Part shown: in pieces, positions 22,411 to 58,929 of the stretch
Position numbering within the stretch: position 1 is the first letter of the stretch
How the letters are laid out: each line of letters starts with the position of its first letter
NCBI RefSeq assembly: GCF_947623445.1
Contig: NC_135243.1
Coordinates: forward strand, 8,992,501 to 9,056,500
From: Clavelina lepadiformis
Lineage: Eukaryota > Chordata > Ascidiacea > Aplousobranchia > Clavelinidae
Reading direction: 5' to 3'
Length of the DNA: 64,000 nucleotides
The notes under the pieces: generated by a model
The model's input: only the letters and a program-made list of their open reading frames with translations
Told to the model about the DNA's origin: nothing
Databases searched by the model: none
Made by a program: the position numbers and the translations under genes

Positions 22411-25400
22411 TTAACACGAGTTCAAGAGTTCGCCCCACGTAGGAATTGGACAAGATTCATCACGAACATGGTTATAAAGGTCTCTAACAAACTCTTCTCC
22501 TTCTTGCCAAGAATTAAGAAAAAACTGCTCAAAACAGCGGTGTCCCGTATCCAAGTCCTACAATCACCACACATAAAGCGGTTTAAATTAACAACAAGAA
22601 AGTGAACAAACAGAAAATAATTTAACGTTAAAATTAAACAAAATTGCAATAAAAAAATTTTAATTAAGTTTTATTATAAAATCTACAAATAAAACCTATG
22701 CCCACATCAGATTAAGTTTATAGAAATAACTTATTTCAAACATCCCACACCTTGATTTTGCTTTTGCAACCTTGATAATTATCCAGGAATATAACCATAA
22801 TTTCAATGTCTTCACTCACGTACTTATCTCGTACTCTTTTCAAATCACCAGGGCCATTTGCACACCTTGCAGTTAAATGTAGTTATGTTATGGCCAAATT
22901 TAAACTTGAAAAATGCGTTTTGAGATGATATTACTAAACGTTCCTTGGTACATTAAGGCTCTTTGTACGGCCTTACGCTTACCGCTAATTTATTAACTAT
23001 AGTTAATATAATATATAATGTATACTTATTCGACAATGAAATCCGCAAGTTTCTCGAGAAAAGCTTTAAAAAATTTAAACTTTTCCATAACTTGCTTCAC
23101 GAATTAATGCCATATTTTAGAAGTGTGTTAGTGTGTAAACCACAGATATCATAACACTATTATACCAATTTGTTACCTAACTTACTTCTCATAAATTCAA
23201 GGCTTACAAGTTTTCTAACGGTGTGTTAAACTTTATTGAAGCTGTTAGTCATGTAATAGTTATAGTTAACCAGCAGGTTACAAAATGTTCAATATAAAAC
23301 CTCTGAGCGTTTTGTTGGTATCTCATGGCCAGATTTAGTAATTAAAATAGGATCGCTATTCAAAAAATTAAAACCAATAAACCACATTGTACAGTAATTT
23401 CATCACAAAATAGAACTTGTTATTGATGTAATGATTTGCAACCATCAAGCTCATACTTGAAGCTGTTATAAAAACTAAAGTATTAATTGTATTTATTCTT
23501 ACCCGTCAGTGATTAACATCAGCAGCTTTTTTACGTCTGAACTTCCATGTCGGGCTCCACGACTTGTGTCTTTAAACGTCAACAAGGCTTTGTTCATTGC
23601 ATCAACCATGTTAGTTCCTCCGGAAGCTCGGATCCTATTTTGACAATGCTTTGAGTGGAATATTTTTGTTTTACGTTCATAAGCTTATACATTATTTTTA
23701 AGCCAGTACTCCTCTCTCTTAAGGATACGTGGTTACAGGTCTATTATGAAAAAAGTTCAATCATGTTTTGACTTGCAAATTTTCATGGTGTTGATTTAAC
23801 AAAGATAAAGGTTATTTTCTTCTTATCCGGATTAAAACCTGCTTATTGAAGATTTATTTCAAGTGGGTGAGAAGCGAAGTGAGGCCATTTTTCATGCCCG
23901 TCTTTAGGTATGCTTTGCAAAGATCTGTATCTGTATATCTGTATCTTTGCAAAGCATACCTAAAGACGGGCATGAAAAATGGCCTCACTTCGCTTCTCAC
24001 CCACTTGAATGTGATTTCAGTGAACATCGAACAGACAGCTTATAGGACATCGACCCGCCACTCTACTGCTCCGTGAGGTGCGGGTACATAGCCGACAAAA
24101 GGTTACAACAACGTCAAATATTCTTTATGACTTTGTCATAAATGCGTTCAACTGTTATATTCACTTGATATGTTTGGTTTTCAGCTTCTACTAAATTTAA
24201 ACTGGTATATCGGCTTTCTTACGTATATTGATGAAGGCCTATGTACTTACCGTAGATTTTGAATTTCGCTTTCAAGATTTATTTGCCCTCTTCCCGGGCT
24301 GCCATCGAATTGGTTGAAATTGAAATGGACTTGGTAAGTGTTTTCAAACGTCGCGACAGCAATTCTTGTTCGATCCAAATGTACTCCAATGCCATTGCAA
24401 ATAGCTAAAATTAATTGAATTGAATCAACGATTGACGCACAGTGTATATGTATAATTAATTTCGATACAAACCTCGCACAACCGCAGCTGCAATATCCTT
24501 AACGGTTTCCATGTGACTGCCAATGCTACCACTTTTGTCCATCAATATTATCATATCTCTTCTCAGTTCTAACTGAAATGATATGCTTGAATGAGAAACT
24601 TTTTGTTATAATGACATTATAATTGGCAAAAGTTCCGGTAAAATAAACCGCACCTATTAATTTTGATTTGCAAATCAACGAGATAACTCACTGTTTGACG
24701 TCGCAAACGTTGCAAAGTGTCTTCCAAAACCACGGATCTTTTCTTTCTCCCAAAACCACCGCAGCCTCCGAACGCTACCAGTTTCCAATCTTCATCAGTG
24801 GCCTCTTGTAGTGGTAGAGAACTAGTCTCCAATGATCTTGAAAAACTTGTATCCACTGGTCGTAATGTACGTTTGGATCGCTGGTGATTAGGTGACTTGA
24901 CACGTATGGCCAAACATTGTTGTCCAGAGGCAGATATGTCAACATCAACCCTAGTTCCAGGTGGTAATTGTCTATTTTTTCCGGGCGAGACAGATGCGCT
25001 GGATGGCGCAGAAAACACCCCGGAAAATGACTCATAAAACAAATCAGCTGTAGTGGGAACAGGAGGTGAGCAGCCTGCGACAAGATGTATCTTTAGTATC
25101 TATATATAAATGTATCATTTTTTTACACAAAAGCACATGCGCAAAGGGGGTCAAAACCTTCCACAGAGAGTAAAGCAAAATGTACAAAAGAACGGCAGTC
25201 AAAGTATGACATCAAAACATGACTTTTTCCCCGTGTCCTTGTCCAAGAAGAGGCGTAGCCAACGCACGGCAGGCCTAGCTTGTATTTCGAGGCCTAAAGC
25301 TTGAGTTTTTATTTCGAGTTTTGGTTCAGTCAAGCATGAAAAAGTTGAAAAAAATTTTTTCACCAACTGTATTGCGGTACGCCACAAAGCAACTGATAGA

Positions 25401-26165
25401 TCATAGTTAGGTTCACTATGCAGCAATTATCAATGCATTAAAAAGTTGAAATCTTGTGATTCATTATTTTATTTCATTAGGTAGATTACACTGTTATTGT
25501 AACCAAATTATTAAGAAACCACTTTGCTAGTGCAGCTAATACTCCAAAGCTTGTGGCATGTGCCTTCATTTACTTGGTAAACTAAGCGGAGAGATGCCCC
25601 CAGGTAATTTAAACACTCCTTCGTGTCACTTTTCATGTTTATTGGGATGATAATATCCATTTGCTGATCTCTTGGTTTTTAGCTAATGCTTACTCCACTT
25701 AACAATAGGATTAACCAAAGGATTCCTCCTCGGCTAATACACTGCAGTTTTAAAAATATGTTCAAGCTTTACTTTGTGTTTGGAAAATTTCTGTGTTTTC
25801 TGGACACGGTTTTCCGCCATTACGAGGCTGGGTTAGTTGCCTGGTTCTAGTTTGAGAGTAACTCCCTCGTACACTTTTGCACTTCCCCCAGGAACCGAAT
25901 GGCGTGATCGTGCAGTCTCCTGTTGTACAACGTCAATTTATTAGTATAACTTATAAATGTGCATATTTTACTATATTGTTGTAATTAAAGAAAACATTAT
26001 GTCTTGATATGCTATAGACATGCACTTGCATGATACGTTATAATTTATAGCCACTTAGAGACTGATATACTTACGTTTTCTGTTCTTTAAGAAAAATCCT
26101 TCAGATAAAGCTAAACATGCAACAAGGAATATTTTCAAAAGTGTGAAAAAGATTGTTAGCTTCAT
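22411..26165 (-). CDS. Secreted TSP1-VWA protein, copy A (422 aa, eight exons)
   Basis: Exons: 26165-26075, 25919-25773, 25074-24692, 24572-24473, 24404-24251, 23634-23503, 22865-22751, 22557-22411; all junctions GT-AG and in phase. Residues 1-23 form a signal peptide (MKLTIFFTLLKIFLVACLAL). Residues 31-81 are a TSP1 repeat (CTITPFGSWGKC, RNGGKPC). The linker 82-190 is Ser/Pro/Thr-rich with a furin-like RKKR at 189-192. Residues 208-422 form a VWA domain with the MIDAS residues in D219-K-S221-G-S223, T299 in GGTN and D335 in ITDG. Cysteines cluster after the VWA core. It is probably secreted, cleaved between the two halves, and able to bind a ligand through a metal ion. I cannot name an orthologue; TSP1 plus VWA also occurs in apicomplexan TRAP, but with different order and no homology implied. 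Copy B and the plus-strand gene at 53793 are paralogues. Confidence 0.88.
23858..24009. repeat. Perfect 67-bp inverted repeat in an intron of gene A
   Basis: Arms 23858-23924 and 23943-24009 are exact reverse complements over 67 bases, around an 18-base spacer made of CTGTAT-type repeats. It lies in the intron between the second and third VWA exons. Copy B has only one, diverged, arm at the same place (about 42154-42220). Confidence 0.95.
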
Positions 26166-32322: not shown

Positions 32323-34136
32323 TCTTTTATTGTTTAAAGCAAAGTTTGTGGAATTTAAGTACCACTTTCGTAAGTTATTTTCTTTCTTTTTTAATTACAT
32401 TTCAATGTGAACGATTTTAGAAGATCTTAATTTTATTTTTAAATTTATTATTATATAAGACTATATGATGAATTTATTAACATACGTTTCGCAATACATT
32501 TTCTGTGCTTATTTGAAATTGTGTTTCGCTTTCCTGCTTTTAGGATTATAGTTTACAGTAATTAGCAATAATCTATTAAGGAATCAGATGGATTCTTTTG
32601 AAATTTAAGTCAACGCCGCGCGCTGATGATTTTAAGTTAAGTGTGAACCATATTTAGAGCGCCAACTTGCGTTATCCTTACAGTTGATTCAGGTACAAAA
32701 ATCATCGCTGGCTGGCAGTACGACAACATCCAAAACTTTTCAATTGAAGTCGGAAACACTGAAATTGCCTGAGCTACTGCATGGAATTACCCCGCCCATA
32801 TCTACCACAAGTTTTTTTTTTTGGTAAATAACAAAATTGTAAGTGGGCTGCTTTTTGCGTTAACAAGACATTGTAGGAATTTCAACATGAAGTTGTTTAC
32901 ATGGTAAATTGTTCAATTCATGAAATGTGGTTATCGGCATAAGAAATTTACAAAAAATTTTCTGTTTTTGGCCTTCATTGTGACCTAGGTCAAGGTTATG
33001 GCTTGATAACATTCTGCTGCTGTTGTTTTCGTTGCGCCTTAGCCTACTAAAGTCAAAAGTGTAGATCATAGGAGTTTAGCCTATGTCCAATTAGGCGTCA
33101 TGGAAAGAAATTAGGAACGTGAAGCTTCGTAACTGAATAAATTAAGATTGTTATAAACATTAAAAATCCGAAAGCCCAATCTCTTGCACCCGTAAAGTTA
33201 CGGTACATACCACCTATTGGTCATGGCTTCAAACCAAAGTGTTGCTTAGTATTATTTTCTTGCACGCGTGGCACGTGATTTACTCGTACTTCTACTGAAA
33301 GAAATGAGTCAACAGTATAATTGGTGACAAGGTATAGCGCAGAAATAATTTCTGTTTTCGAAAGGCCACATTTCCTTCGAAAAAAATTATACAGCAAATA
33401 ATTTTCGCAAAAAGATCATCACATATTCAAATAAGATATCCACGGTCGTTGATCGATGTGAAAGCGCAGTGCTGAAAAAAGACTTTATTGGCAGTTACCA
33501 ATGCTACAAATTTCATAAGCTGCCGACTTACGAAAACCTTTTTACCATTCTCTAAGTGATTACAAAAGACAAATTGAATGTTTTTCAGCTTGTTGTGTTT
33601 GTCTTTGTAAAACATTGCTTTTAACTCTTTCTGTATTTTTTTGTTGAAACATCATTAATTAGGTACATATCATGACAAGTAAAGATTAAATTTCATTTGA
33701 TCCAAATCAACCTGATTGTTATTAGTCTGAAATTCCAAATAGAATGTTTGGCGCTGGACGTTTCACGGTTGCCTTGATGAAAAATACCTTTTGTAACATT
33801 TCAGCGAAATCTGTTGCAAAAACGTCGACTCGATTCCTAAAATCGTGCGTTGATTATAACAATGTTTCTTGCGCTGAAACCAGGAAAGTAATCCTGTGAC
33901 AGACATACATGATTAATGTATAATAGGCGACTGGAAAAGTTTGGCATGAATGATCTTTATCAAACTGCTCGTGAAATGTAATAGGCATGGTCAAGCTTTC
34001 AAGGAAATCCCTGAAAAACAAACTTATGTCCACGAACCGTCTAATTGCTACATTCAAACGTTAATGATGTAATACGGTTGTCGCAGGTGACGCGCATACA
34101 AGTGATTTTCGTATGCAGCAGAATAGCCGCTTGCTT
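32323..34136. other. Non-coding spacer left of duplication copy B
   Basis: No recognised gene. A short open stretch after an AG at about 32682-32780 (IDSGTKIIAGWQYDNIQ) looks mildly protein-like but has no known match or partner exon. The rest is AT-rich intergenic DNA. Confidence 0.35.
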
Positions 34137-34588
34137 GTTTTTATGTTGTTGTATGACTGTGATTTTGTTCGCAAATCACCATCAACCTGAGTGAGACTTT
34201 TGGAAATGATGTCGCATAAGTTGCTAAGAGATTGTTTAACAGGATACTTTGCTAAATTCCACTGGAAATGGTGCAAGTAATTTGTTAGCGTCATATCACC
34301 AGCTTTTAACAGAGAAGAAAGCCTATCACGCTGATCTTCAAGTACATCACCCATGTAATTAGCAACTTTCTTGCACACAGTTTCTGCAAATGTATCAATC
34401 TTTCCGAGATCGTTTGAAAGTCCAATTAATGAATCCAAAGTTCCGACTTTTAATTCAGGAATATGAAATTTATAATTATGAGAAAGGACATTATTCGCTC
34501 CTTGTCCAGACGTTGCCTTGTTTAGTCGATCCCATGCTTGTTGAGCTGTTTTTTCTCCTGGAACACTGATTATCCAGTACTCAGATAT
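34137..34588 (-). pseudogene. V-ATPase subunit C fragment (first ~150 codons)
   Basis: The sequence copies the N-terminal part of the V-ATPase C gene at 17528-18679 almost exactly, up to the peptide KSQSYNNIKT, and then runs into unrelated DNA at the duplication edge. The start codon has changed: ATG of the parent (minus strand, 18679) is ATA here (34588-34586), and no nearby in-frame ATG replaces it. Without about 60 percent of the protein, including the C-terminal LLRWLKVSF and RYGLPVNFQA blocks, it cannot make subunit C. Its upstream region is intact, so a transcript is possible. Confidence 0.93.
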
Positions 34589-35229
34589 ACCGTAATGCAA
34601 ATACTAGTATTTTGCTTAACCTAAATATTGAATTTTTAAACCCATAGGCTATATTAATCACTAACAATTTGTCTACTAGAAACAGCGATATTATGAATGT
34701 AACTTTAGAAGGGCTAAGCTGCATTTTACATTCCAAGTGGTTGCAGTAAGCGCCATTAACGCAAACTGACATGCTTTGAACTTATATTTAGATTATTTAG
34801 AAGAAAGATTTAGGTTTAGTTTACCTTATGATGTAACAACATATAAGCTAAGTTAACAAGGAACTTAACACAGAGCAAATAAATAATGTAAAAGCCGAAG
34901 TTAGTCTTTCCATAGAAAATTTAGACTAACATAATGGCCTATAAGTTAATAAGAAACGATAATGAGCAACCTCAAAATTACGATCTTTTAACAGCAGCAT
35001 GCAGTCTAAAGAAAGTGAGAAATATGGAGGATAAAAAGTGGAACGAAATTATTGATGCCATTTATGTGCAGGCCAACTGAACTGAACCATCACAAAAAAT
35101 CGTGTGTGCACAGAACAGTGGCAAAGTTTTCATCAAACTGTGCAACTAGTGCAAGGAAGCAGCCAGTGTGCTTCGCGGGGTTTGTGGTAGTGCAGGTGCG
35201 GCCTTTTATAATGGAAAACCGAGAAAGAA
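34589..35229. other. Duplicated V-ATPase C upstream region
   Basis: Copy of 18680-19319 with small indels, now serving no complete gene. Confidence 0.5.
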
Positions 35230-35395
35230 GAAGTGTTTATTAGAGATATCAATCTTCTCCCGGTATGCAATGCCGTTTCGACCAAAAAATCTCAGGTTTG
35301 CTCTTGCCATGCTTCCTGCGTCCTCATCCAGTCTGGTCGTTAACCATTACGCCACCGCATTGCGTTTTTCTCACCCAACGCCGGTGAAATAGTCA
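35230..35395 (-). repeat. Possible tRNA-derived SINE head (copy B)
   Basis: Equivalent of 19320-19500, with A-box-like (35344-35354) and B-box-like (35272-35282) motifs conserved. It came with the segmental duplication and is not an independent insertion. Confidence 0.4.
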
Positions 35396-36558
35396 CTTCT
35401 AATTACTAATTAGGCTACAGCAAAGCTCGTACCTCGTGCATGATATATGGACTAGGTTTACAAAACGCTAATTTTATCTTTTAATATTCGATAAATTTTA
35501 AGAATTTTAACGTTGTATAACGAACTTTTCTTGGTAACGATTCGTTAGTTTCAAGCATAGAATATCACTTTTTGTCAAATTCGTTACAGAAATGAACCAA
35601 CCCTGCGCCTGCTTGTTCTTTATAGCCGCAGACTTGCTTGTCAATACCAAACAACCGTATGCTATAGATCATACAACTCAAATCAACAAGATCAAATACT
35701 AGTAAACTTAGCCCAAGAGAAACAATAGATGTTGAACGCTAAATAATTGAAACTGATTGAGTTTTTCTAAATACTGCAGTATTATTATAGCGTTCGCTAT
35801 GCTACAGTTAAAACAAATTGAAATATTTTCCATTACATTTTACGTAATTTTTCAATTTAGTGAACTATTTTCATACTGGGTCACTTAGTCACATGAAAAT
35901 AAATAGAAATCTGACAAGTTTTGGTAAAAAAGAAAATAATTTTAAGATATCTATTTATGTTTCAAATTGACAATCAGTTTCTAAGCTGGTTTCTGTTCAG
36001 TTTATCATAGATCCGTTTTTATTGCATGCCAGAATTGTATTGAAATCTTTCTTCTTGGATTGAAGAAAGTCTTTACACTATTTGATTCTGTCGGGATTGA
36101 GTTAACTAGCTTGTTCGTGGTAACTTGATAAGGTTGGAGCGATAACGTCTACAAAGTGATTGAATAAGTAATCCAGTAAACGTTAATTTCAATAATTTTA
36201 TTTTCAATTTATTTTCAATACTGATTTTCAATCAGCTTTTTTAGGTTATTGTGACGAATAAGATGAATAATTACTTCAAAACCCGGGATTATTCAATAAA
36301 ATTAATAAATTTTTCTAAGATTTTGGTGTGTTTTGATGAATAAATCGATTAATTTTCATACACCTTCTAGAGCAGCGGTTCCCAAACTGGATTCCGCGGA
36401 TCAATTGGGGTCCGTAAAGAAGTTTCAGAGGGTCCGCAATGAGAATTAGTCTTTAAAGCTTTAAAGCAGTTTCAGAGGGAGGATATAGTACACGACAAAA
36501 AACCAAACCAAACATTGATGAGTTAATTGCACCAAAACAAGTGCACCCATCCCATTAA

Positions 36559-40274: not shown

Positions 40275-43200
40275 TTAACACGAGTTCAAGAGTTCGCCCC
40301 ACGTAGGAATTGGACAAGATTCATCACGAACATGGTTATAAAGGTCTCTAACAAACTCTTCTCCTTCTTGCCAAGAGTTAAGAAAAAACTGCTCAAAACA
40401 GCGGTGTCCCGTATCCAAGTCCTACAATCACCACACATAAAGCGGTTTAAATTAACAACAAGAAAGTGAACAAACAGAAAATAATTTAACGTTAAAATTT
40501 AACAAAATCGCAATAAAAAATTTTTAATTAAGTTTTATTATAAAATGTACAAATAAAACTTATGCTCACATCAGATTAAGTTTATAGAAATAACTTATTT
40601 CAAACATCTCACACCTTGATTATGCTTTTGCAATCTTGATCATCATTCAGGAATATAACCATAATTTCAATGTCTTCACTCACGTACTTATCTCGTACTC
40701 TCTTCAAATCACCAGGGCCATTTGCGCACCTTGCAGTTAAATGTAGTTATGTTATGGCCAAATTTAAACTTGGACAATTCGTTTTGAGATGATATTACTT
40801 AACGTTCCTTGGTACATTATGGCTCTTTATATGGCTTTACGCTTCCCGCTAATTTATTAACTATAATGTATACTTATTCGACAATGAAATCCGCAAGTTT
40901 CTCGAGAAAAGCTTTAAAAAATTTAAACTTTTCCATAACTTGCTTCACGAATTAGTGCCATATTTTAGAAGTGTGTTAGTGTGTAAACCATAGATATCAT
41001 AACACTATTATGCCAATTTGTTACCTAACTTACTTCTCATAAATTCAAGGCTTACAAGTTTTCTAACGGTGTGTTAAACTTTGTTGAAGCTGTTAGTCAT
41101 GTAATAATTATAGTTAACCAGCAGGTTACAAAATCTTCAATATAAAACCTCTGAACGTTTTGTTGGTATCTCATGGCCAGATTTAGTAATTGAAGTAGGA
41201 TTGCCATTCGAAAAATCAAAAACAATAAACCACATTGTACAGTAATTTCATCACAAAATAGAACTTGTTATTGCTGTAATGATTTGATACCATCAAGCAC
41301 ATACTTGAAGCTGTTATATAAACAAAAGTATTAATCGTATTTATTCTTACCCGTCAGTGATTAACATCAGCAGCTTTTTTACGTCTGAATTTCCATGTCG
41401 GGCTCCACGACTTGTGTCTTTAAATGTCAACAAGGCTTTGTTCATTGCATCAACCATGTGAGTTCCTCCCCAAGCTCGGATCCTATTTTGACAATGCTTT
41501 GTGAGGAATATTTTTGTTTTACGTTCATAAACTTATACATTATTTTTAAGCCAGTACTCCTCTCTCTTAAGGGTCTGTAGTACCATTTTGAGCTGTTTTG
41601 AAACAGCAACACGGCGATTGTGACGAAGGTCTTATGCAAGACGTCACTATGGAAAACGTATAAATGGTTCCGGTCCAGTGCGCATGTGACCTTAATTTGT
41701 GATGGTTTGTTGTTGTTATGGCGTTTGCTGAGTGTAGGTTCAGGATAAATTTGACATTTTGTGTTGGTTCAAAATTAAGGATTTTTGGCTGATTTTTTTG
41801 AAAAATGTAAGGAAAAAAGTTGTTTAAAAGTTGAAGCATTTGGTGTGAGAATTCCAGATAGGAGAATTTGCTCAAAATACTGCATTAAGTTCTTTTATCC
41901 TACATCTCGGCGGATACAAAAACTCAGCGAGGTGACCGGGCTTGTTTAGTAGCAAATTCAAATATGTTACTTTGCATTGTTTAAGATAAGGCTCCGGATG
42001 GGCCTACAGTCCCTTAAGGATACATGGTTACAGGTTTATTATGAAAAAAGTTCAATCATGTTTTGATTGGCAAATTTTGATGGTGTTAATTTAACAAAGA
42101 TGAAGGTTATTTTCTTCTTATCCGGATTAAAACCTGCTTATTGAAGATTTAATTTAAGTGAGCGGAAAGCGAAGTGAAACCATTTTTTATGCCTGTCTTT
42201 AGGTATGCTTTGCAAAGATACAGCCGTGCTGTGATTTCAGTGAACACCGAACCGATAGCCTATAGGACATCGACCCGCCACTCTACTGCTCCGTGAGGTA
42301 CGGGTACATAGCCGACAAAAGGTTACAACAACGTCAAATATTCTTTATGGCTTTGTCATAAATACGTTCAACTGTTATATTCACTTGATATGTTTGGTTT
42401 TCAGCTACTACTAAATTTAAACTGGTATATCGGCTTTCTTACGTATATTGATGAAGGCCTATGTACTTACCTTAGATTTTTAATTTCGCTTTCAAGATTT
42501 ATTTGCCCTCTTCCCGGGCTGCCATCGAATTGGTTGAAATTGAAATGGACTTGGTAAGTGTTTTCAAACGTCGCGACAGCAATTCTTGTTCGATCCAAAT
42601 GTACTCCAATGCCATTGCAAATAGCTAAAATTAATTGAATTGAATCAACGATTGACGCACAGTGTATATGAATAATTAATTTCGATACAAACCTCGCACA
42701 ACCCCAGCTGCAATATCCTTAACGGTTTCCATGTGACTGCCAATGCTACCACTTTTGTCCATCAATATTATCATATCTCTTCTCAGCTCTAACTGAAATG
42801 ATATGCTTGAATGAGAAAATTTTTGCTAAAATGACATTATACTTGGCAAAAGTTCTGGTAACATAAACCGCACCTATTAATTATGATTTGCAAATCAACG
42901 AGATAACTCACTGTTTGACGTCGCAAACGTTGCAAAGTGTCTTCCAAAACCACGGATCGTTTCTTTCTCCCAAAACCACCGCAGCCTCCGATCGCTACTA
43001 GTTTCCAATCATCAGTGATCTCTTCATCAGTGGCCTCTTCATCAGTGGTCTCTTGTAGTGGTAGAGAACTAGTCTCCAATGATCTTGCAAAACTTGTATC
43101 CACTGGTCGTAAAAGACTTGTATCCACTGGTCGTAAAAGACTTGTATCCAATGGTCGTAATGTACGTTTGGATCGCTGGTGATTAGGTGACTTGACACGT

Positions 43201-44464
43201 ATGGCCAAACATTGTTGTCCAGAGGCAGATATGTCAACATCAACCCTAGTTCCAGGTGGTAATTGTCTATTATTTCCGGGCGAGACAGATACGCTGGATG
43301 GCGCAGAAAACACCCCGGAAAATGACTCAAAAAACAAATCAGCTGTAGTAGGAACAGGAGGTGAACAGCCTGCGACAAGATGTATCTTTAGTATCTATAT
43401 ATAGATGTATCATTTTTTTACATAAAAGCACATGCGCAAAGGGGGCTCAAAACCTTCCACAGAGAGTAAAGCAAAATGTACAAAAGAACGGCAGTCAAAG
43501 TATGACATCAAAACATGACTCTTTCCCCGTGTCCTTGTCCAAGAAGAGGCGTAGCCAACGCATGGCAGGCCTAGCTTGTATTTCGAGGCCTAAAGCTTGA
43601 GTTTTTATTTCCAATTTTGGTTCAGTCAAGCATGAAAACGTTGAAAAAATTTTTTTCACCGGCTGTATTGCGGTATGCCACAAAGCAACTGATAGATCAT
43701 AGTTAGGTTCACAATGCAGCAATTATAATCAATGCGTTAAAAAGCTGAAATCTTGTGATTCATTATTTTATTTCATTAGGTAGATTACACTGTTATTGTA
43801 ACCAAATTATTAAGAAACCACTTTGCTAGTGCAGCTAATGCTCCAAAGCTTGTGACATGCGCCTTCATTTACTTGGTAAACTAAGCGGAGAGATGCCCCC
43901 AGGTAATTTAAACACTCCTTCGTGTCACTTTTCATGTTTATTGGGATGATAATATCCATTTGCTGATCTCTTGGTTTTTAGCTAATGCTTACTCCACTTA
44001 ACAATAGGATTAACCAAAGGATTCCTCCTCGGCTAATACACTGCAGTTTTAAAAATATGTTCAAGTTTTACTTTGTGTTTGGAAAAGTTCGGTGTTTTTT
44101 GGACACGGTTTTCCGCCATTTCGAGGCTGGGTTAGTTGCCTGGTTCTAGTTTGAGAGTAACTCCCTCGTACACTTTTGCACTTCCCCCAGGAACCGAATG
44201 GCGTGATCGTGCAGTCTCCTGTTGTACAACGTCAATTTATTAGTATAACTTATAAATGTGCATATTTTACTATATTGTTGTAATTAAAGAAAACATTATG
44301 TCTTGATATGCTATAGACATGCACTTGCATGATACGTTATAATTTATAGCTACTTAGAGACTGATATACTTACTTTTTCTGTTCTTTAAGAAAAACCCTT
44401 CAGATAAAGCTAAACATGCAACAAGGAATATTTTCAAAAGTGTGAAAAAGATTGTTAGCTTCAT
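40275..44464 (-). CDS. Secreted TSP1-VWA protein, copy B (447 aa, eight exons)
   Basis: Exons: 44464-44374, 44218-44072, 43369-42912, 42792-42693, 42624-42471, 41482-41351, 40729-40615, 40421-40275; frame open and splice sites kept. Same domain order as copy A: signal peptide, TSP1, linker with RKKR furin-like site, VWA with DKSGS, GGT and ITDG MIDAS motifs. The linker exon is 75 bp longer. An 8-residue unit (LRPVDTSL) occurs three times instead of once, and an acidic ATDEE-type unit is also repeated. The last exon differs from copy A by one silent change. By contrast the GGTN loop reads WGGTH, and the segment after VIFL reads NDDQDCKSIIK instead of DNYQGCKSKIK. A 443-bp MITE sits in the intron between the second and third VWA exons. 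Both copies look functional; ligand and expression site are unknown. Confidence 0.88.
41571..42013. mobile_element. TTAA MITE (piggyBac-like), 443 bp, in an intron of gene B
   Basis: TTAA flanks both sides (41567-41570 and 42014-42017). The ends GGGTCTGTAG and, read inward from the right, GGGACTGTAG are inverted repeats with one mismatch. Copy A has the empty site CTCTCTTAAGGATAC. No coding capacity. The TTAA duplication points to piggyBac-class mobilisation, but its ends differ from the 36559 element, so another family moved it. Confidence 0.88.
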
Positions 44465-44729
44465 TTCTATATATCTTAAAACGTTTACAGTTTTAAAAAT
44501 ACTGAAAATCTATGACAAATTAATAAAAAAACTATATAAAAAGATCAATGTTAAAAGTTTTAGGAAAAAGATTTTTAAGAGACTGTCTTTTTGGTCTCAA
44601 CATCAGTTTTGCTTTATTACTAAACAGTAAACACTAAATACCGTCGAAACAGTTATACACATTACATACCGAAAAACAAAAAATTACTTGTTTACAATTT
44701 ACACGGGGACAACTCTGTTTTTGGTAGCG

Positions 44730-44988
44730 GTTCCCAGAGCCTGCTGAAACAATCTACATCAAGACGTGCGTGATACGTGAAATCTTATCTCTTTCAAACA
44801 AGGGCTAAACAAACATTTTTTCCGCTATGCTTTTGTGTTTTAGCATTTTAAATCCTAATTTTATTGTAATGTTTTGCTGCTTTTAGTCTTTTGTATTTTG
44901 TAAATTACTTGTAGGTTTTATCTTTTGACTGTAAAGCGCCTTTGACAGTATTTTTATCGCTATAAAAATGTTTATTATTATTATAATG
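44730..44988 (+). mobile_element. LINE (CR1/L2-like) 3' end relic (copy B)
   Basis: Copy of the relic at 26430-26703. Here the tail reads TGTAAAGCGCCTTTGACAG and then CTATAAAAATG plus a TTA repeat, even closer to the usual CR1/L2 3' end. Confidence 0.6.
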
Positions 44989-46139
44989 CAACGTTGGTAC
45001 TTTCGATTCGACTTGGCTTCACTAGAAAGGCTATAGAAGACAGTCTTAGGCGCTAACGGCGCAGCTGCAATTATTTATTTATGATTTAACAATTGCAATT
45101 TAAAACTCTTTGCAGACTTTACTTATATTAGACTATAATGGTCGAGATGTCAGGGTTCTATTGGGTGTTTTGGGCTAGTTGTATTCAATTACGAACACTT
45201 TATCACATCAAACTGCACTAGATTCAGAAAACTGCATTCAGAAAACCAAACAGCAAATTTTAAGTTACAGAGACGCAATTTGCATTTGTTCAAGGTAGTT
45301 TGCATACAAGTTAAACTACTTTATAGTAGTACTGTATAAAAAGAGTGCAAAACCAGAACCTACAGCTCACTCATTACGAAAGACAACTGCATCTAAAACT
45401 GCCAATGAAAAGTTTCATGTTTCTCTTAAATCGCCTCTAAAGTATCACCAAAATGAAACGTTGCCTTATTACGAGATGTTAGAGATTATATAACTTTAGC
45501 AATTGCGGCGATAAAAGTTTGTAACTGCGAATCCCACTTTGCTTGCATTTGCTTAAATATAATTTTTTAATGCTTAGGGCATTTCGAAATTGACGTCACA
45601 ATTGTCAGTGTACCAGTTACGAAAAATGTTTTTAGCTTATTGCCTTAATCCATTTTCTTGAAAGTTAATCAGATGCATATAAACCTGCAAGATTTAGAAA
45701 ACTTGTATAGCTGGTTCACCTTGTTGTAGTTTTTAAGCAAAAGTAAAAACATTTTTTCACTGAACATGTAAAGGGCATTTCCAGATTTCTTTCTGGACTG
45801 AACTTAATTTAAACCTTGCAATTTTACGACAAACAAAGTTGTCATTAAAATCAACAAGAAATACTTCGCTGATGTACTTTTGATTAAGAACGGTTGAAAA
45901 AATTCAATTCTTGGTAACATGATGCTCAGTAGCTGATTGCCCCAAACGTATATATTGGGCCCGCTCGCGATGCCACCAATTCATCACATTCGTTGATCGA
46001 GGTTTTCGGTAATTGTTTTTACAACTGTCATTTATGTTTGTGTCACAAAGGAATGGCACCACTCCTACTGACCGCATATAACTGGTTTGTTCGTTGCAGT
46101 TTATACAGTATTGTGACATGTGTAGCAGTGCAATGATTG
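44989..46139. other. Non-coding, right part of duplication copy B
   Basis: Matches 26704-27910 with several small indels (for instance near 45225-45260 and 45950-46080). No recognised gene. Confidence 0.35.
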
Positions 46140-47963
46140 CACTACGTAACACAATTTTTGTTTGGCTACATTTTTTAATGCCCCTTTATGTATTTTTGTG
46201 TGCTGAGTTCAAAAATCCAGTTAGTTTTTTCGTACCATCGTTACTTTTTGAGATATTCAAATTTTGATATAGCTGTAAGTACAGCAAATCGTGTTCTACT
46301 CTTGCAGTAGATTTTAGCTCCACATCAAGGTTCTGTTTGGTTTATTAAACGCAAAAACAAGTTTAAAAACGTTAGTAAGGAAGGCTTGAAGATAAATGTA
46401 ACATAGTTTTGTCAAACAGTAAGAGTCGTTCAAAAATGTACTTTTGAGAGAGTTTTTTTTTATGACTACTCCTGTCTTGCCTTACTAAAGACCAAATGTA
46501 GTTTCCCATCATTACACTATCCCAGCGGCCTTTATATCGTTTTTCCATTGGCTCAATATCCTGATGAAGTCTCTCACCGTGCTCCTCACTGAAGTCACCT
46601 AGATTTTCTTGAAAAAAATCCAGATGCGAACATAAAAAATGAAGTTTGACAGACATGCGACAACCCATGTTTTGGTAACTTTTGATAAGTTTCTCCACCA
46701 ACTCTTTGTAATTTTTGTCCCTTTTATTTCCCAAAAATCCATCAACCACACCTCGAAATGCTTGCCACGCTTCTTTTTCTGTTTTATTCATTTTTTCTTC
46801 CAAGCTTTTACACTTTAACATTGTGTTTATCTGAGGACCAACAAATATTCCTCCTTTTATTTTGGCAAGTGATAGTCTGGGAAACATTGAACGGATTTCT
46901 TGAAAAACTTGTCCTTGAAAATCCAAAGCTTTGACAAACTGTTTTACCAGACCTAATTTGATATGAAGTGGAGGCAGTAAAACTATTTCCCGGCTTACAA
47001 GAGGTTCCCTAATAACGTTGTACATTCCTGGGTTTAGTTTTTCCCGTGTCGGCCATTAATTTTCTCATAGTGCTCACCGTCAGCTCTACTATTCCACAAG
47101 CACAGAAAGCAAGAGTATTTTGTGTAACCACCCTGCAGACCAAGCAAAACTCCCAACATTTTAAAGTCATCACAAACATACCACTTAAACTGAGTGTAAT
47201 TTATTTTAATGAGCAGTTGCTTGACGTTTTCATAATCTTCTTTCATCTGTAAGGAATAAGCAAGTGGAATTGATGGGTATATGTTGCCATTGTGAAGTAA
47301 CATTGCTTTAAGACTTTTGGTAGAACTGTCAATGAAACGCCGCTACTGAGTAGGATCATGATCTATTCCAACAGCACAAAACAGGCCTTTCCACATCTTT
47401 GCAATAGCAAAGGTCTTCAAAAATGTCAAAGTAGACAGAAAACTCCAAGTGCCTATTCCTGTGGGGTAGGCAGTACTCTTACTTAAATTGTTTCACTCTC
47501 TACTAGACATTTTGATTTCTACTATTTAAAAGATGAACTGAATCTAAGATTTACACAATACTTAACTGTACAAAATGTAATTATATGGCATACTTCTCTC
47601 TGTAAACACAAAACATGACTTTCTAATGAGACTATACTGAATTTAACATAAATAGATAAAATGAAAACTGAGATAAGAAATAAAAGCACATTCGTCTGCA
47701 TTTCAAACTCCCACTCCCATTCACTTTCTCAAGTAAATAGGACGCCCATTTACAACATGATAGTGCTGACAGACACAGATCATAACCGCATAAAATACCT
47801 ACAGTTAATGGAAAATCACAAAAAACGGAAATTTTTGTATTTTGAAAACGATCGATGATAGAAAAAAACTGATAGCATTTTTGAAATCAGCGCTTGAAAA
47901 TCATACAGATACACTTAATAAATGTAGCCAAACAAAAATTTTTTTGAATTTTGTTACGTAGTG
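46140..47963 (-). mobile_element. CACTA-like (CMC superfamily, Chapaev-like) DNA transposon, 1824 bp
   Basis: The left end is CACTACGTAACA, and the right end read inward is CACTACGTAACA. The similarity continues over about 35 bases through TTTTTGTTTGGCTACAT. TTG occurs on both sides (46137-46139 and 47964-47966); copy A shows the site without the element, so the duplication is 3 bp. The minus strand encodes a two-piece transposase related to the one at 2828-3677. CACTA ends plus a 3-bp duplication fit the EnSpm/CACTA-Chapaev3 group. It post-dates the segmental duplication. Confidence 0.85.
46372..47303 (-). pseudogene. Transposase of the CACTA-like element, frameshifted
   Basis: Pieces 47303-47034 and 47025-46372 are in different frames and together cover the C-terminal half of the transposase. 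Motifs in order: DDFKMLGVLLGLQGGYTKYS, CFLCLWNSR (CxxC), PPLHIKLGLVKQFVKALD, GPQINTML, NMGCRMSVKLHFLCSHLDFF (HxxxxH), and SEEHGERLHQDI with a likely catalytic Glu. The break follows the HYEKINGRHG block and removes the short linker the other copy retains (PKRNEFVVGEKNV). No N-terminal domain is visible upstream within the element, so the copy is both frameshifted and internally reduced. Confidence 0.8.
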
Positions 47964-47979
47964 TTGTTATCGGAAAATA

Positions 47980-48054
47980 CAGGATGTTCACAGAGTTTTC
48001 AGACAATCAATATTCATCATTTTTAAATTGTCTAAAGACTTCGTGGACTCCCTG
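47980..48054. mobile_element. 75-bp foldback MITE (copy B)
   Basis: Equivalent of 27927-28002, with a few substitutions in the right arm. It lies only 16 bases from the right end of the CACTA-like element. Confidence 0.6.
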
Positions 48055-48478
48055 TATATCAAACAGGGTTCATTTTCAAAACAGCAAGTGATCTTTAGAG
48101 CGTTTTCAATCTAATGCGCGACAATCAGAAGATGTATGAGGCGAATATTCATCCTTGTAAAAATTTGGAAAGATTTGTCCGACGTCAGGGTAATTTTTGG
48201 CTTAAAGGTTTGTTTCATAAGCTTGTAAGTAGATCTTACGCAAGCCATGTAATCTTAAGTAAACGACTAATATATTAGTTCAGAAAACCACGGGATTTCC
48301 ATTGACCTTTCCATTAATGTCAAAAACGACATAATGAGCCGACGGCTGGTATTTTAAAAGTATAGATAACAAGAAAACAGAAAAATATTTTCAGTAAAAC
48401 TATAATTGACATTTAAAAGGTTTGCTTTCCTGAAATTAGTTTAAAACTTGTGGTTTAGCATTCAGCCAAGGAAGAGAA

Positions 48479-50339
48479 AGAAGAAATTGGGTATTTATCA
48501 AAAATGTGTCTTGAGAAGTACACTTCGGAGAAAAAATAAAGTTCACTGATGTTTGGATGACGTATTAGTTGAACTATAAAGGTCAATAAGGTCATGTCAT
48601 CATTGTATAATATCCGTATAATGGCTGATTACGGTCAATGGAATGCATACACACTCTACATTTAACATTAAAGGACCCACAGCCTTCTCGTTGGAAAATT
48701 CCCTCTGCCAAAAAAATTTCTGCTTAATTCCTGAATTGTGTGACAGTACATTTGTGTAATGTTAAAACATACTGTCAAATGTTACACATTCATAAAAAAT
48801 ATTCGATTTCTTTGCTTATCAATGCAGTTAAAAGAACGATTACATAGCTTGAATGAAGAATGTTTGCCTGGTTAGATATAATTAAGAAAGCAACCATTTC
48901 ACCGTATGTATACATTATGCAGCACGTTGTTAAATATAAAATGGTATGAGATATGCTTATAAGTATAAATATGTTAGAAAAATGGATATAAAAATTTAAT
49001 TTTAGCTGTTTTGGTTTTAATTCGAGTTAGTTTACAGATAAGAAGTTTGAGTTACTATGTTATAATATCTAAGTCATGTTAACAAGAAACTGTGAAAAGT
49101 ATAGCTGTAGTGAAAAGTACCAAAATAGCTGGTCCAGTGAATAATATTGACAGTCAATATTGTTTGTCAAAATTCACCAAACGTAATTGGAGTAATCGTA
49201 AACAGTTAAAGCAATTTTTTTAAAGGTTAGACTTGTAAATGTTCGTTCTTTTAAGTTATTATGGCTGGAATAAAAATAGAGATTTTATTTCGCTGGAAAG
49301 TGGTATGGGCTGCCATGTTATGGAGATATTTGAGATGTCAAAATTGACCGAATCTATAAACGATCGAGTGTGAAGTGTAACATGACTAAACACTTCATTA
49401 AGGCTTAGATACACTTATAACGGAACTATACCTACAAAATATGTAAACTCAAAGTAAGATTATTATAACAGCAAATATAGTAAGCTCAGCTACAAGTTTG
49501 AAGTAATTAATTAAAAGGAACACTTCGTTTACCGAGTTTAAGCGCACTTTGCCTTTCACAATAGTAACATGATTGAGGCACAAAGAAACACACAATGCAA
49601 ATACGTAAGAGCAGAAGCACGATAGAGAGCTAAAACCGTAACAGAGTAAAAGTAAAAAGTTAAAATAATTACTGACTATAGTTTTTCCTACACACGTATG
49701 AGCTGCCCTAGCGCGAAAGGCTAAATCGACAATTAAAGGGCATTATAACCTGACCGGTATCGTTTTGCTCGTTTTGTGAACACTTGGAATCTCGAAGCAC
49801 CCCCGCCGTGAAAAAGCTTTTCCAGTTTGTCATTGACTCACGAACTGAGTGTGTAAATCCAAGATGTAGCCTACTGTACTGTAAAACCTTACAGACAGTG
49901 ACTGATTATGGTATATCATAGTAAACACATAATTCACTTATTACATAAAATCGTGTTAAAATCTTGTTTATTCATGCAACGACGTAAGCATATAGATTGA
50001 AGTGAATAGCTTCCAGCTAGGTAAACCTTTTTAAGTCATTTCAAATATATCTTTGTAAATAGGTAACTTTAAGCAAGGTTGAGATCATACTCAAATTCAA
50101 ATTTACAGTGTTTATTGACATCCTTAGGCAATTGGTGATTATATGGTCAAACACATGTAACAACAAATATTAGGTGATGGTATCTTTTTGTTTTTAAAGC
50201 AGGATAACCTTGTTTTGCTGCTATTACTACACCAGAGCAAATGCTATGAGATTATTGTTATTATAAAACTGTTGCGTATGTTTCATTTCTCTATCGATCA
50301 GTAGGTCAGTGGAAAAACCAGAAATAAAAATAAACATGT
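48479..50339. other. Non-coding stretch, nothing recognised
   Basis: AT-rich DNA right of the duplication. No coding match, RNA gene or transposon terminus was found on either strand. Confidence 0.45.
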
Positions 50340-53792: not shown

Positions 53793-56700
53793 ATGAAACT
53801 ACTGCTAATTAATGCTGTTGCATTTGCATTTATATGGTCACAGGGCCATTTTGCAAAAGGAGTGCTCTTCCAAAGACGACCAAGTTAGTGCACAAATATA
53901 CTACTTTTATTACTATTATTTGTTAGTGATTTAGAGAGGCAAACAAATCTTCTTGTTTTGCGGAACTTAGTTTAACAAAGGTTTATCAAACTCTCACGTC
54001 GCAGCCCAAACCATTGGAACGAACCTATCAATTTTTAAATATTGTCACCAACTCGATCTAGCTTCATTCGAACGTTTACATTATTTTTGCCGAATAAAAC
54101 AAAGGCATATTTATTGTCCTAATGAGAAACATTTTTTCAAAAAAATACAAAGATTTATCTTTATAGTATAATTTGCTGGCAATCGTTAGCAAGCTACTTC
54201 TTTTTAAGCGCTTAGTTTGGCTATAGCTCTAATGCTGCTTGCAGGTGCTTTCTGATGTACACACATATTATTATACATTGATGGTCAGACTATTATACAT
54301 ACGTAGCTTATATAGGGATGTGTTGAACCTAAAGGTCCTGCACTAAGGTCGCTATTTTGAAGTGTTCTAATGCACGAACCCGAATTGTTTTCAATTTTCC
54401 ACAATCCCGGTATTTAGGTTATATATTTTTCAAGTTAAATCTCTCTAGAATATCATCCGCGAATATTATGCTAATTAAATAATAAGTTATAGATCATACA
54501 ATTTTTAATTAACAGGGGACTGCACAGTCACGAATTGGGGAAGATGGTCAAAATGTGTGAGAAACGATCTGGGCTCCTTCACTCAAACTCAAATCCGTTT
54601 CATGGCCCGAGCAAGGAATGGCGGTCGGCCTTGCGATCCAAACACTCAACTTGCAAAAACACAAAGTGAAAGCTTGTGATGCGAGAAAAAAATAATACTG
54701 TTGAAATTATTTGTACTTAAAATTAGACAAAAGTAACCTATAATTTCTACAACACTTGTAAATTTCGTTTAAATTCTATGACGTACAGGCTTAGCCAATA
54801 AATCAGTTTATTACGCTTGCAATATAACTGATATGGTTAATTTTAACATGTGAAGGCTGTCAACAAAGAGTGACCAGTACAACTGTTGGACAACTCTTTC
54901 GTTCAGCATTGTCATCCGGCCAAGCTAGCCCTACGGAAACAGATGCCGCCGCATATTTGCCTCTGGATACTTCGTATCTGTCCAAACATCCTGGACTGAC
55001 ATCCCAAGTGAACAAAGACGTTGATCGAAGTAGAATGGAGAACGATTTAGTTTCAGAAGCAATATCAGAATCGGGAAAGTTTTGTGACGTCATTAGAAGT
55101 CCATCAGGTTCGATTATTGCGTCAGGCAATTGCCAAACAACCCGTAGAAGACAGAGAAGAGAAGTAGATGTGTCGGCTGCTGCTCAGTTTTTAAGAAGAG
55201 TTCGGCGCACAACGGTACTTTTTTACTCACAACTTACGTTTTTAGATGAAGTAAATCATACCTTCAAGGCAACATACTTTAAGCTTTCTTACCTCTTGAT
55301 AGGAAACAGCAAGGGATATGGTGATTCTTCTCGATAAAAGCGGAAGTATTGGCAACCACATGCAAACTATAAAAGACATTGGAGCTGCCGTTGTACATGG
55401 TAGGTAGAAAAAATGCTTTACTTCTTTGAAGTTAAAAGACTTAATCGATAAACAAATCGCTTTCTTTCGAAAAATAGTGTTTAAAAAACGATTGACAAAG
55501 CAAAATCGTTAGGAAAATGACCTTCATTGTAAGTATTGCTGACCTTAGTTTAGCTTTGTCGGGAAACTAGACCATATTTTTAACTAAAGTTAGTAAATTT
55601 ATTAGTAATATTGTATTCGGGTTCGCCATTGTTGGTATTCGTGTTCGGCCGAATCTTCCATAAAGGCGATATTCGGCGAATCTATTCGGGTTCGTATCGG
55701 CCCATCCCTAACAAATAATACGTTCTGCTTTAGCTTTATGCAACAACGTTGACATTGGTCGAGATCGAACAAGAGTTGGGGTTGCGTCATTCGACACGAC
55801 GTACCAAGTTCATGTCAGATTTAATCAATTTCTGTCATCGATTGCAAAATGGCAACTGGAAAATGTAATCGAACGTTTGAAGTAAGTGGATATAACAATA
55901 GAAAACGCTTTATTTTAACATTATAACACCTGGGGCTGCATTCGGTGTTCATCGTTTTTCGTAATCGTAATAGGTCGAATTTTGTGCAATCCGATTAAGG
56001 ACGAGTTAAAATGCTAAGAAAATAAAAACTGTGCTCTTACTCTGGAACAAAAAGCGCTCATAAAAGGGATCAAAACGCTTTGAAGCTTCCAACCATCTAC
56101 AAAAAGAGCATACTTATCCTTTGTAAGCCTTAACAGCTTTCTATATTCGTTGTAAGTCCAACGCCACTTTTCAGTAATTTTATTGGGTTATTTTTAAGCG
56201 GTATATTCAATGCCAAATGCACGGTACGAGTGCACACAATGACTGTAGTGGTGAGATTGGTGCAAGAATACGATTTCTTTGTTACATTATAAACATCTTA
56301 AGGTTACCGACTGTGAATATCTTAACGACGAGAGTCTCTTCAAGTGTGAAAACTATCCTGTTTATGATCTGGTTGTTTACACAATACAGTGAATAAAGCC
56401 ACCGTGACGTCATTCGGTCATAACTTTTGATGCAAATATGTTGAAGTGAGCCGCCAGCATCTATCACACTTATAGCTCTATTTAGTATGTGATAAATATA
56501 GCCTTATAAAGATTGGTGGTGCTGTAGTTATAACTTGCAGTTGAGCAAGGCGATCACACCATCAAGTTATAAAGTTGCAGCACGTGGTTGATTGTAATTT
56601 CTGGTCTATTGATGAGTCTCCAAGGTCGTGCGAACTTTTCACACTCAGAAAGTTCCGCTGTTCGTGCAGATTTATTCTTGTCTGATTGCAGAGATTTCTC

Positions 56701-58929
56701 AGCTGTCACTTCAGGTCACATTGTTCAATTCGCTTACACGATTAGTTTTGTGTTGAATCCTGTACAACTGTCGCTAGTTGCTGTCTAATTGTCTTGGTAT
56801 CGATTAGCAAAATTGTTCTTTCGATTTACCTTGATTATATTGTTTCTTCATTGGTTAAACTTGGTGAAACGCAACATTGTGTCGAGACAACTAAAATGAC
56901 AACGTCTTCTCGACTGGGTCTTTGCAGAATACTAATGATAATGAACACATTGGGCGTTAATCCATAGCAATTAGTAGATACGCCAATTAGCACAGGAAAA
57001 CACGTCGTAAGGAAATAAATACAAGAGCGACATTTCCACTGCCTTGTAAAATTTACTGTTAATTACAAACAAGTTTTTTTTCAGCACATAGTTTGATTAG
57101 GCATACAAGTATTGGCGATGACGCTGTTTGACATTTTTGCTGGTTATGGTTAATTAACAAAAAAGTAGTAACAAGAGGTCAAGAGCCCTCCAAAAGCAAA
57201 TTGAGCAGGAAAAGTAACAAAGTGCATTGGAAAGTGTCGTCGCTGTTGACAAATCGAGAAATATGAGTTAAATGAAATATGTACGATTGTACGCGCAAAA
57301 TGCAAAGTGCGATGCTTATCAAACCTAATCAAATGCAACCATTTATTTCGGTACAAACCTTATTTCCATTATGTGCTATTATTAGCAGTTGTTTTTGTAG
57401 AATCTGTTATAAAAAAGCAGTGCAAAGATATGAAAGAGCATCAAGGCAGTGCAAACAATTATTCGTACCGTTTTTAGAAAACTAGCCACATCCTTTACGT
57501 CAGTGTGCGTTTCGTTGTAACAATTACTGTACGTTCGTGAAAGATCGATCACACAATTTGTGTCCATCAAATAGTTACAGTTCATACAACCCATTATACT
57601 TACATATACCAGCACGTATTATTCTCTAGACCAGGGTTTCTCAAAAGGGGTCATGGGGTCGTTGTCCTGGGGCCACGAACAGATGCCTCACAAGTGTGCT
57701 ATAGTGTGGTAGTAGGGGAAGACGAGGCAATGTGTGAGGTAGTACGTAGGAGTAGAGGAAGACGTTGGACACGAGTTTCCCACATTTGTGTGCTTTTGCT
57801 TGCTGCTACCAACACGCATTATACTTTACAGTCTAGATTCTAGAGCAGACGCAGTGTACGGTATAACGGCAAGGGCATGGCGCTTACATTCAAACTACTT
57901 TGTTTTTTTATTATGACGTCACACGTTTGTGCTCGAATACTCATAAACGTAAAATTTGAGCTCCCATAAACTCGATCGTAGTTTATATTTCCACAACCTT
58001 AAAAGCACAAGCAAACGTGTCTGGACACCGCAGGAATTAGAGGAATGTTTTATCACAATAAGCGTTACTATTTATCCCATTACATGTTATTTCATAGCGG
58101 CGTGAGTATAAAGCTTTAAACTTAAGCAAATAACACCAGGCTTTGTGAACAGCATTCCAGCTTCGGGTAACACTCACCTGGCAACCGCAATGAGAAGTGC
58201 TGCACACTTCTTGAATGACATCAGCAAGGGTGCAAGGGTTGGAAACCCTAACGTAGAAAAATTGCTTGTTTTGATCACAGATGGGTGAGTTATTAGCAAA
58301 ACAATTTACAAAAGGTTTAGATTTAATTGGTAATACGTTTCATTGAATTTGAGATGCTAGCATGATAAAAAATTTTTACGTTAACCATTATATAATCTAA
58401 ACCACAATTTTTAAATACCGGTTAGATTTATAAATAAACCTGTGCCTTGAAAAAAATGTGCATTTACAGTAAAAGTTAAAAAGTTCAACTTACAGATGCG
58501 CAAATGGACCCGGAGCTCTTAAGAGCGTTATGGACAAATACAAAGCCGATAAAATCGGCATAATTGCCATTTATATTGGCCGAATGGAAGGTGGATGTTA
58601 TGAGAAAATTATGGTACGCTGTTATAACTTTGATGACAATTGTATGGACAATGCGAATGTCCTCGTACTTTAGATTTCAATTTTATTGTAGCCTTGTGAA
58701 GTTATAGTATAACTATATCTTAACGATTGTTTTATTTGCTCTAGCTTCTTTAAACAGCTTTATAAAAGTTGTTTCTTATTTTCTATAGGACTTGCACACG
58801 GGTAGGAGATGCTTTGAGCAGTTTTTCCTTGAGTCATGGGATTTTGCTCAAAATAATTTTATCAATACTATTTATGACGAAAACTGCGTAGCTGAATCAT
58901 GGGCGGACATGTTGGACAGTTGCACATAA
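53793..58929 (+). CDS. Secreted TSP1-VWA protein, third paralogue (411 aa, eight exons)
   Basis: Exons: 53793-53883, 54516-54665, 54856-55214, 55303-55399, 55734-55881, 58153-58284, 58496-58613, 58789-58929; phases match those of the minus-strand copies at every junction. Residues 1-22 are a signal peptide (MKLLLINAVAFAFIWSQG). A TSP1 repeat follows (CTVTNWGRWSKC with the full WxxW, then RNGGRPC). The linker is polar, without the LRPVDTS repeat, and ends with a strong furin-like RRRQRR at 177-182. The VWA domain begins near 201 with MIDAS residues D211, S213, S215 (DKSGS), a Thr in SGNTH, and ITDG. Cysteines after the VWA core match those of the copies (GGC, RRCFEQFF, NCVAESW, SC). The fifth intron is 2.3 kb and carries transposon debris. 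It is clearly homologous but much diverged, so the split is older than the A/B duplication. Ligand unknown. Confidence 0.9.
55600..55712. mobile_element. Fragment of a TTCGGG-repeat MITE in intron 4
   Basis: TATTCGGGTTCG occurs at about 55615 and 55683, with related GTATTCGTGTTCGG and GATATTCGGCGAATC in between. The stretch ends TATCGGCCCATCCCTA, which read on the other strand begins TAGGGATGGGCCGATA, a start typical of several hAT-type MITEs. The other end is missing or decayed. Confidence 0.4.
57632..57830. mobile_element. Probable hAT-type element fragment in intron 5
   Basis: It starts CAGGGTTTCTCAAAAGGGGTC next to CTCTAGAC, a Charlie-like terminus beside a TCTAGA target. The right end is uncertain: GTCTAGAT near 57831 could be a mutated duplication, but no inverted repeat pairs with the left end. 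Flanking ACCAGCACGTATTAT and ACCAACACGCATTAT resemble each other. Confidence 0.3.

Follow-up and report, generated by a model that had tools for sequence, protein, structure and literature searches.

Is the C-terminal von Willebrand factor A (VWA) domain of a group of ascidian proteins a fixed part of one chain, or is it cut free from the parts that precede it? The question is raised by three genes, here called A, B and C, in a stretch of 64,000 nucleotides from Clavelina lepadiformis (NC_135243.1, positions 8,992,501 to 9,056,500). This stretch, the window, is C4:8992501-9056500 in the searched assembly (209 Mb, 95 contigs). Each gene encodes a signal-type leader, a thrombospondin type 1 (TSP1) repeat, a linker with basic sites, a VWA domain with a metal ion-dependent adhesion site (MIDAS), and a cysteine tail. 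The reading that we favour, with slightly more confidence than doubt, is that cleavage by a convertase would free an autonomous MIDAS-VWA module from a secreted proprotein, and that the module would act in adhesion in matrix or mucus.

The exons were modelled by hand from DNA alone, with GT-AG borders, which are present in all 21 introns of the three genes. Gene A (22411..26165, minus strand) encodes 422 amino acids in eight exons (26165-26075, 25919-25773, 25074-24692, 24572-24473, 24404-24251, 23634-23503, 22865-22751 and 22557-22411). Gene B (40275..44464, minus strand), a recent duplicate of A, encodes 447 amino acids in eight exons (44464-44374, 44218-44072, 43369-42912, 42792-42693, 42624-42471, 41482-41351, 40729-40615 and 40421-40275). 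Gene C (53793..58929, plus strand), an older paralogue, encodes 411 amino acids, also in eight exons (53793-53883, 54516-54665, 54856-55214, 55303-55399, 55734-55881, 58153-58284, 58496-58613 and 58789-58929). A sequence-only reading of the window had described three genes of eight exons with identical phases and secreted-type N-termini. The start and stop coordinates agree with it to the base, the intron phases are 1,1,0,1,2,2,0 in A, B and C, and a hydrophobic stretch follows each start Met, which is how signal peptides were called by eye.

That reading counted a family of three, and the family is about five times larger. Whole-assembly searches (60 matches to an A query at E<=1, 72 to a g6 query at E<=0.5, and 30 to an h4 query at E<=0.1) reveal at least 16 genes in four places, plus two exon fragments; gene counts are lower bounds at the sensitivity of the searches. 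A second cluster, at C1:24.395-24.456 Mb, comprises eight genes by splice-site modelling (g1 to g8). Six of these (g1, g2, g3, g6, g7 and g8) have the full plan, with the same phases as A, B and C. In g4 and g5, the leader exon joins the VWA exon directly in phase 1, so that the modelled proteins consist of leader and VWA only. The two exon fragments, among the matches of at least 22 bits that were listed, lie between genes of this cluster. A third cluster, at C1:10.626-10.643 Mb, was reached through weak matches and contains four more distant genes (h1 to h4). Their VWA introns match those of other family members in position and phase, and their N-terminal part, read by eye, is Thr-rich or short with a W-x-C. 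A further gene at C6:15.698 Mb, found by the h4 query, has open frames with a comparable linker, the sequence RRRRS, and VWA exons. Start-to-stop frames with a signal-type N-terminus are complete in A, B, C, g1, g3, g4, g5, g6, g7 and g8.

Among the second-cluster genes, g2 (C1:24399863-24402384) has an in-frame TAG in exon 4 and is otherwise complete; it may be a recently broken copy or else a polymorphic null. Genes g7 and g8 were modelled with a GC donor at intron 7 (C1:24445787 and 24455773). Genome-wide, VWA exon matches number at least 159, with 150 of 321 first-look candidates scored, and further grouped VWA matches are found, for example, at C2:26.10 Mb and C5:9.27 Mb.

The VWA domain exceeds the curated Pfam cut-off in all three window genes (E values 7e-19, 6e-18 and 2e-20), is matched in each of six aligned members at E<=0.1, and is over the cut-off in the single third-cluster protein that was scanned. 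The MIDAS residues D-x-S-x-S, T and D, which the sequence-only reading had called complete, are present in A, B and C. In A, the VWA begins in exon 4, and its DKSGS is at 24525..24539 (minus strand); the corresponding DKSGS is at 42745..42759 (minus strand) in B and at 55333..55347 (plus strand) in C. In a larger alignment, the MIDAS is complete in 13 of 15 members, g4 and g5 having Ser for Thr. Among solved structures in the Protein Data Bank (PDB), the VWA comes closest to the matrix and adhesion A-domains of collagen VI alpha 3, mussel PTMP1, and integrin alpha-X/M/1/2, with weaker matches to TRAP/MIC2. The cysteine tail noted earlier is present in A, B and C, but some of it probably still belongs to the end of the VWA fold, because the Pfam match extends to profile position 139-155 of 174 in the window genes and to 167 in a third-cluster relative.

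The N-terminal repeat is TSP1-like with some reservation. Exon 2 of A (25773..25919, minus strand), of B (44072..44218, minus strand), and of C (54516..54665, plus strand) scores to TSP1_spondin (PF19028) with E values of 2e-8, 2e-8 and 2e-4, in each case under the 41-bit cut-off. All six aligned members score to PF19028 at E<=0.1, and the family profile weakly matches F-spondin 1vex (E 0.055). A TSP1 repeat usually has six cysteines in three disulfides, but the region has four in each of the nine TSP1-bearing members; the WxxW found in C lacks its first Trp in A and B. For the linker of the window genes, nothing credible was found in Pfam, and the TSP1 and linker of g6 gave a single match to the PDB (E 0.29). 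Most members share a linker motif with two cysteines, C-x-x-[ILV]...G-x-[VI]...G-x-C.

The basic sites follow this motif and precede the VWA. Site 1 is RKKR in A (24737..24748, minus strand) and B (42957..42968, minus strand), and RRRQRR in C (55143..55160, plus strand). The linker had been described as ending there; it instead runs 13 residues further in A and B, and 16 in C, to site 2, which is RLRR in A (24698..24709, minus strand, two codons ahead of the exon 3 end) and B (42918..42929, minus strand), and RVRR in C (55197..55208, plus strand). Across the TSP1-bearing members, the distance from site 1 to site 2 is 13-18 residues. The suggestion of a furin-like site is borne out insofar as basic sites separate the two parts, but the site that was named is the less conserved of the two. 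Site 1 is a strict RX[KR]R in seven of the nine TSP1-bearing members, whereas site 2, which lies at the exon 3 end immediately ahead of the VWA, is R[LVF]RR (RLRR, RVRR or RFRR) in all nine (A, B, C, g1, g2, g3, g6, g7 and g8). Genes h1 to h4 have a single site at the exon 3 end (RRKR, RKKR, RRKR and RSKR, respectively), and all 13 modelled members with a linker carry an RX[KR]R that sets the VWA apart from what precedes it. The last Arg precedes the MIDAS Asp by 13-15 residues at site 2, by 17-19 in h1 to h4, and by 27-32 at strict copies of site 1. In our judgement, the exon end and the spacing equate the h1 to h4 site with site 2. An alignment of six N-terminal halves has 24 invariant columns, and four of these are arginines of the two sites.

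The cysteines are distributed in a way that would allow the two parts to separate. The linker has two cysteines in all 13 linker-bearing members, and the VWA plus tail has six (A, B and C) or eight (the other 12), an even number in 15 of 15. Because the counts in TSP1, linker, and VWA plus tail are all even, no disulfide needs to cross the cut in the nine TSP1-bearing members. The extra cysteine pair differs between clusters, the second having it in SCIV and C-x-C-F and the third in STC and CANC, as expected if disulfides are gained in pairs.

The g4 and g5 models, if their leader exon is real, provide the best sequence argument that the VWA could be an autonomous secreted unit. In a VWA-only tree with midpoint root, g4 and g5 group with g1, g2, g3 and g6 (95/91), beside g7 and g8, and apart from A, B and C. 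This tree, together with the presence of an N-terminal part in every other modelled gene, suggests that g4 and g5 lost theirs. A larger tree that includes h1 to h4 leaves the forks among the 11 TSP1-cluster genes open, and with them the nesting of g4 and g5. The idea of a cleavage that separates the VWA is strengthened by these two modelled VWA-only paralogues and by the even cysteine counts on the VWA side.

In the family plan, an N-terminal part that varies (spondin-like TSP1 in two of the clusters, Thr-rich or short with W-x-C in the third) is followed by the two-cysteine motif, a convertase-type site, and a MIDAS-VWA with its own cysteines. We propose that a furin-type convertase would cut the basic site directly before the VWA during secretion, and in the TSP1 clusters a second convertase cut would fall 13-18 residues upstream. 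The released VWA chain would then bind an acidic residue of its ligand by way of the MIDAS metal, and the TSP1 or Thr-rich part may anchor or target the VWA in matrix or mucus. The sequence directly shows the gene structure, the order of the domains, the MIDAS residues, the conserved position of the sites, even cysteine numbers wherever these were counted, and two paralogues modelled as VWA only; secretion, cleavage, metal binding, ligand, and a role in matrix or mucosal adhesion are what we infer from it.

Several observations weigh against this proposal. Site 1 is loose in g7 (VSKR) and g8 (IRKR). The motif RX[KR]R is not confined to these sites: A and B have an RSKR at residue 145, and g4 and g5 have an RVKR within the VWA. 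Moreover, when the basic segments are shuffled, at least one RX[KR]R arises with a probability of 0.04-0.55 per gene. Basic residues are abundant, so with such chances the presence of a site in a single gene is no evidence, and only its conserved position across diverged paralogues counts; paralogues share ancestry, so even these are not independent observations. MAFFT aligned the single site of h1 to h4 with site 1, not site 2. The TSP1 scores of the window genes are under the cut-off, no TSP1 was found by Pfam in the one third-cluster protein scanned, and the cysteine count of h1 to h4 covers the linker and the VWA plus tail, as distinct from the rest of their N-terminal part. Finally, in g4 and g5 the acceptor that receives the modelled leader exon is poor in pyrimidines, and the two models could be truncated copies instead of true leader-VWA genes.

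Alternatively, the protein might remain a single chain of the matrix, in which the basic runs are uncut and bind acidic glycans or act as a spacer, and TSP1 and VWA form one adhesive molecule. The richness of the linker in basic residues, the ease with which the motif arises on shuffling, and the degeneration of site 1 in two of nine members are all compatible with such a chain, and TSP1 modules can bind glycosaminoglycans. However, the strict motif closes exon 3 in every one of the 13 modelled linker-bearing members while its flanks have diverged, and the two modelled VWA-only paralogues start at that exon boundary. We regard the uncut chain as unlikely, while giving it real weight.

The larval adhesive organs might also secrete these proteins, as settlement adhesives or papilla proteins related to vwa1, a group of ascidian genes with activity around metamorphosis. 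These tunicate genes are likewise named for VWA, and they were compared by description only. According to the available portions of the sources, Ciona vwa1c is papilla-expressed and ERK-regulated, and Boltenia vwa1 is turned on as larvae gain competence (PMC4109947); VWA domains recur in marine adhesives (PMC12472103); and vWA/thrombospondin proteins are up in coral larvae before settlement (PMC3204972). However, the words 'thrombospondin' and 'TSP' are absent from the available text of the vwa1 paper (PMC4109947), and a papilla-marker paper (PMC10962819) has a single mention of TSP1, together with a protease domain, and neither 'VWA' nor 'von Willebrand' in its main text. A settlement role seems improbable for this family, and we treat it as a lead.

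Tandem clusters that are still duplicating could instead represent a diversifying repertoire for immunity or self-recognition. The 16 genes in four places include recent tandem copies (A/B and g2/g3/g6), and the broken copy g2, the two exon fragments, and linker repeats in flux add to the impression of turnover. Short tandem repeats with 15-bp and 24-bp units occupy 43009..43160 (minus strand) in exon 3 of B, where its linker exceeds that of A. Proteins A and B are 95.7% identical in amino acids, with 0.019 nonsynonymous (dN) and 0.053 synonymous (dS) substitutions per site; A and C are 49% identical, with dN 0.51 and a saturated dS of 3.5. In seven pairs (A/B, g2/g3, g2/g6, g3/g6, g7/g8, g4/g5 and g1/g6), however, dN/dS is 0.17-0.53 for the whole protein and 0.12-0.43 for the VWA. 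Values above 1 are confined to single exons with few changes each (the linker in g2/g3, 1.04, and g2/g6, 1.19; TSP1 in g7/g8, 2.21), and four ratios have no value, since synonymous change was lacking. A repertoire under positive selection is not supported by the whole-protein or VWA ratios of these pairs. With a constrained VWA and a less constrained linker, an adhesive or structural role fits better than a hypervariable recognition repertoire, which we consider more doubtful still than a settlement adhesive.

The weakest alternative, that these are exons of a larger matrix gene (hemicentin- or collagen-like) taken out of context, is very improbable: VWA and TSP1 do co-occur in hemicentins, in the accessible part of PMC10381214, but a start exon with a hydrophobic leader and a stop exon with an in-frame stop after exon 8 bracket the modelled copies, the same exon set is present in two clusters, and tblastn with the family (E<=0.01) finds no family match in the flanks of the window, searched for 10 kb each way.

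The domains themselves are ordinary, but no named family with their arrangement turned up in the libraries that were searched, and the sequence-only reading could not place the proteins in one either. A named family with leader, TSP1, basic site, VWA and tail was not found in the Pfam or PDB results, and no tunicate TSP1-linker-VWA family was met among the papers listed by searches of the open PMC library; tunicate proteomes lay outside these searches. The VWA domains of integrin I, collagen VI and PTMP1 resemble those of the window family in being the best PDB matches and in their MIDAS residues, but the window family has extra cysteines within and after the VWA. We know of no protein of the integrin I, collagen VI or PTMP1 type in which a single VWA is preceded by TSP1 and a basic site. 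In TRAP/MIC2, which is also among the PDB matches, the VWA precedes the thrombospondin repeat, whereas TSP1 comes first in the window family. TRAP proteins likewise contain both a MIDAS VWA and a thrombospondin repeat, but they are described in part of PMC9019593 as integral membrane proteins with a cytoplasmic tail. Membership in this family was rejected, since no hydrophobic stretch was seen by eye after the VWA and the window chains end 0-1 residues past the last cysteine.

Hemicentins are secreted matrix proteins that also carry both VWA and TSP1; in the available parts of PMC10381214 and PMC3707829, they have an N-terminal VWA, about fifty immunoglobulin (Ig) modules, TSP1, G2F and EGF, and more than 5000 amino acids. 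Membership of the window genes among them was rejected, because here the VWA lies at the C-terminus and is followed by the stop of the frame, and Pfam gives no Ig match. A coral skeletal protein, compared by description only, is another lineage-restricted mixture of TSP1 and VWA, but the part of PMC4890752 that describes it gives three VWA domains, successive TSP1 repeats and two F5/F8 type C domains. F-spondin is comparable through the TSP1 scores to PF19028 and, weakly, to 1vex; it differs in that the TSP1 of the window family has four cysteines, and no other spondin domain appears in the Pfam results.

The duplication that produced A and B can be followed beyond the genes. The segment 18228..28427 aligns with 34137-48479 in four blocks at 91-95% identity (blocks of at least 250 bases were listed), with A in one copy and B in the other. 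It begins, at 18228, inside an intronless V-ATPase subunit C frame (17531-18694, minus strand; 388 amino acids, Pfam E 1e-142), which may be a retrocopy; a second, partial frame of 180 amino acids is at 34064-34603 (minus strand). Transposase frames of the DDE_Tnp_1_7 family, which we take to be piggyBac-like, lie with a zinc finger at 36913-38237 (minus strand). Because these frames sit in a gap of the duplication alignment (36558 to 38569), the transposase probably entered the B copy. Intron 5 of gene A contains a perfect 67-nucleotide inverted repeat with an 18-nucleotide spacer (23858-24009). Both arms match one stretch near 42150-42220 in gene B, which therefore has a single copy.

Elsewhere in the window, a GH39 or alpha-L-iduronidase-like protein of 643 amino acids is encoded in a single frame (6210-8138, plus strand; Pfam E 4e-92) and has an additional C-terminal domain. 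Twenty other open reading frames of the window were compared with Pfam; five matched at E<=0.01 and 15 had no match. A search of the window with Rfam also gave no match. The same intron-rich genome contains a bacterial-type cellulose synthase frame of 309 amino acids with TED and QRSRW, which matches bacterial cellulose synthase in the PDB (E 7e-22). Tunicates are described, in the available part of PMC10334666, as the only animals that make cellulose directly, and we therefore take the genome to belong to a tunicate. Two other markers were less helpful: GH6 gave no match, but neither did any of its 14 controls, which makes the result uninformative, and mitochondrial COX1 gave no match although 8 controls did, perhaps because the organelle is missing from the assembly.

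The cleavage reading can be taken one step further, as a tentative extension that we consider rather unlikely in its full form. One conserved proteolytic boundary might serve a tunicate-specific mode of delivery, in which an identical kind of free MIDAS-VWA adhesion module is shipped by different N-terminal carriers (TSP1, a Thr-rich stalk, or none). In the TSP1 clusters, the twin sites would excise a peptide of 13-18 residues with a conserved basic end, a possible pro-segment or signal. The VWA with its MIDAS is a main adhesive tool of animals, and in this family evolution appears to use the domain as a secreted unit that can be detached from carriers that are themselves exchangeable. If this is so, the family would be a compact case, in the sister group of vertebrates, of a matrix or mucosal adhesion repertoire that grows by tandem duplication around a conserved cleavage boundary.

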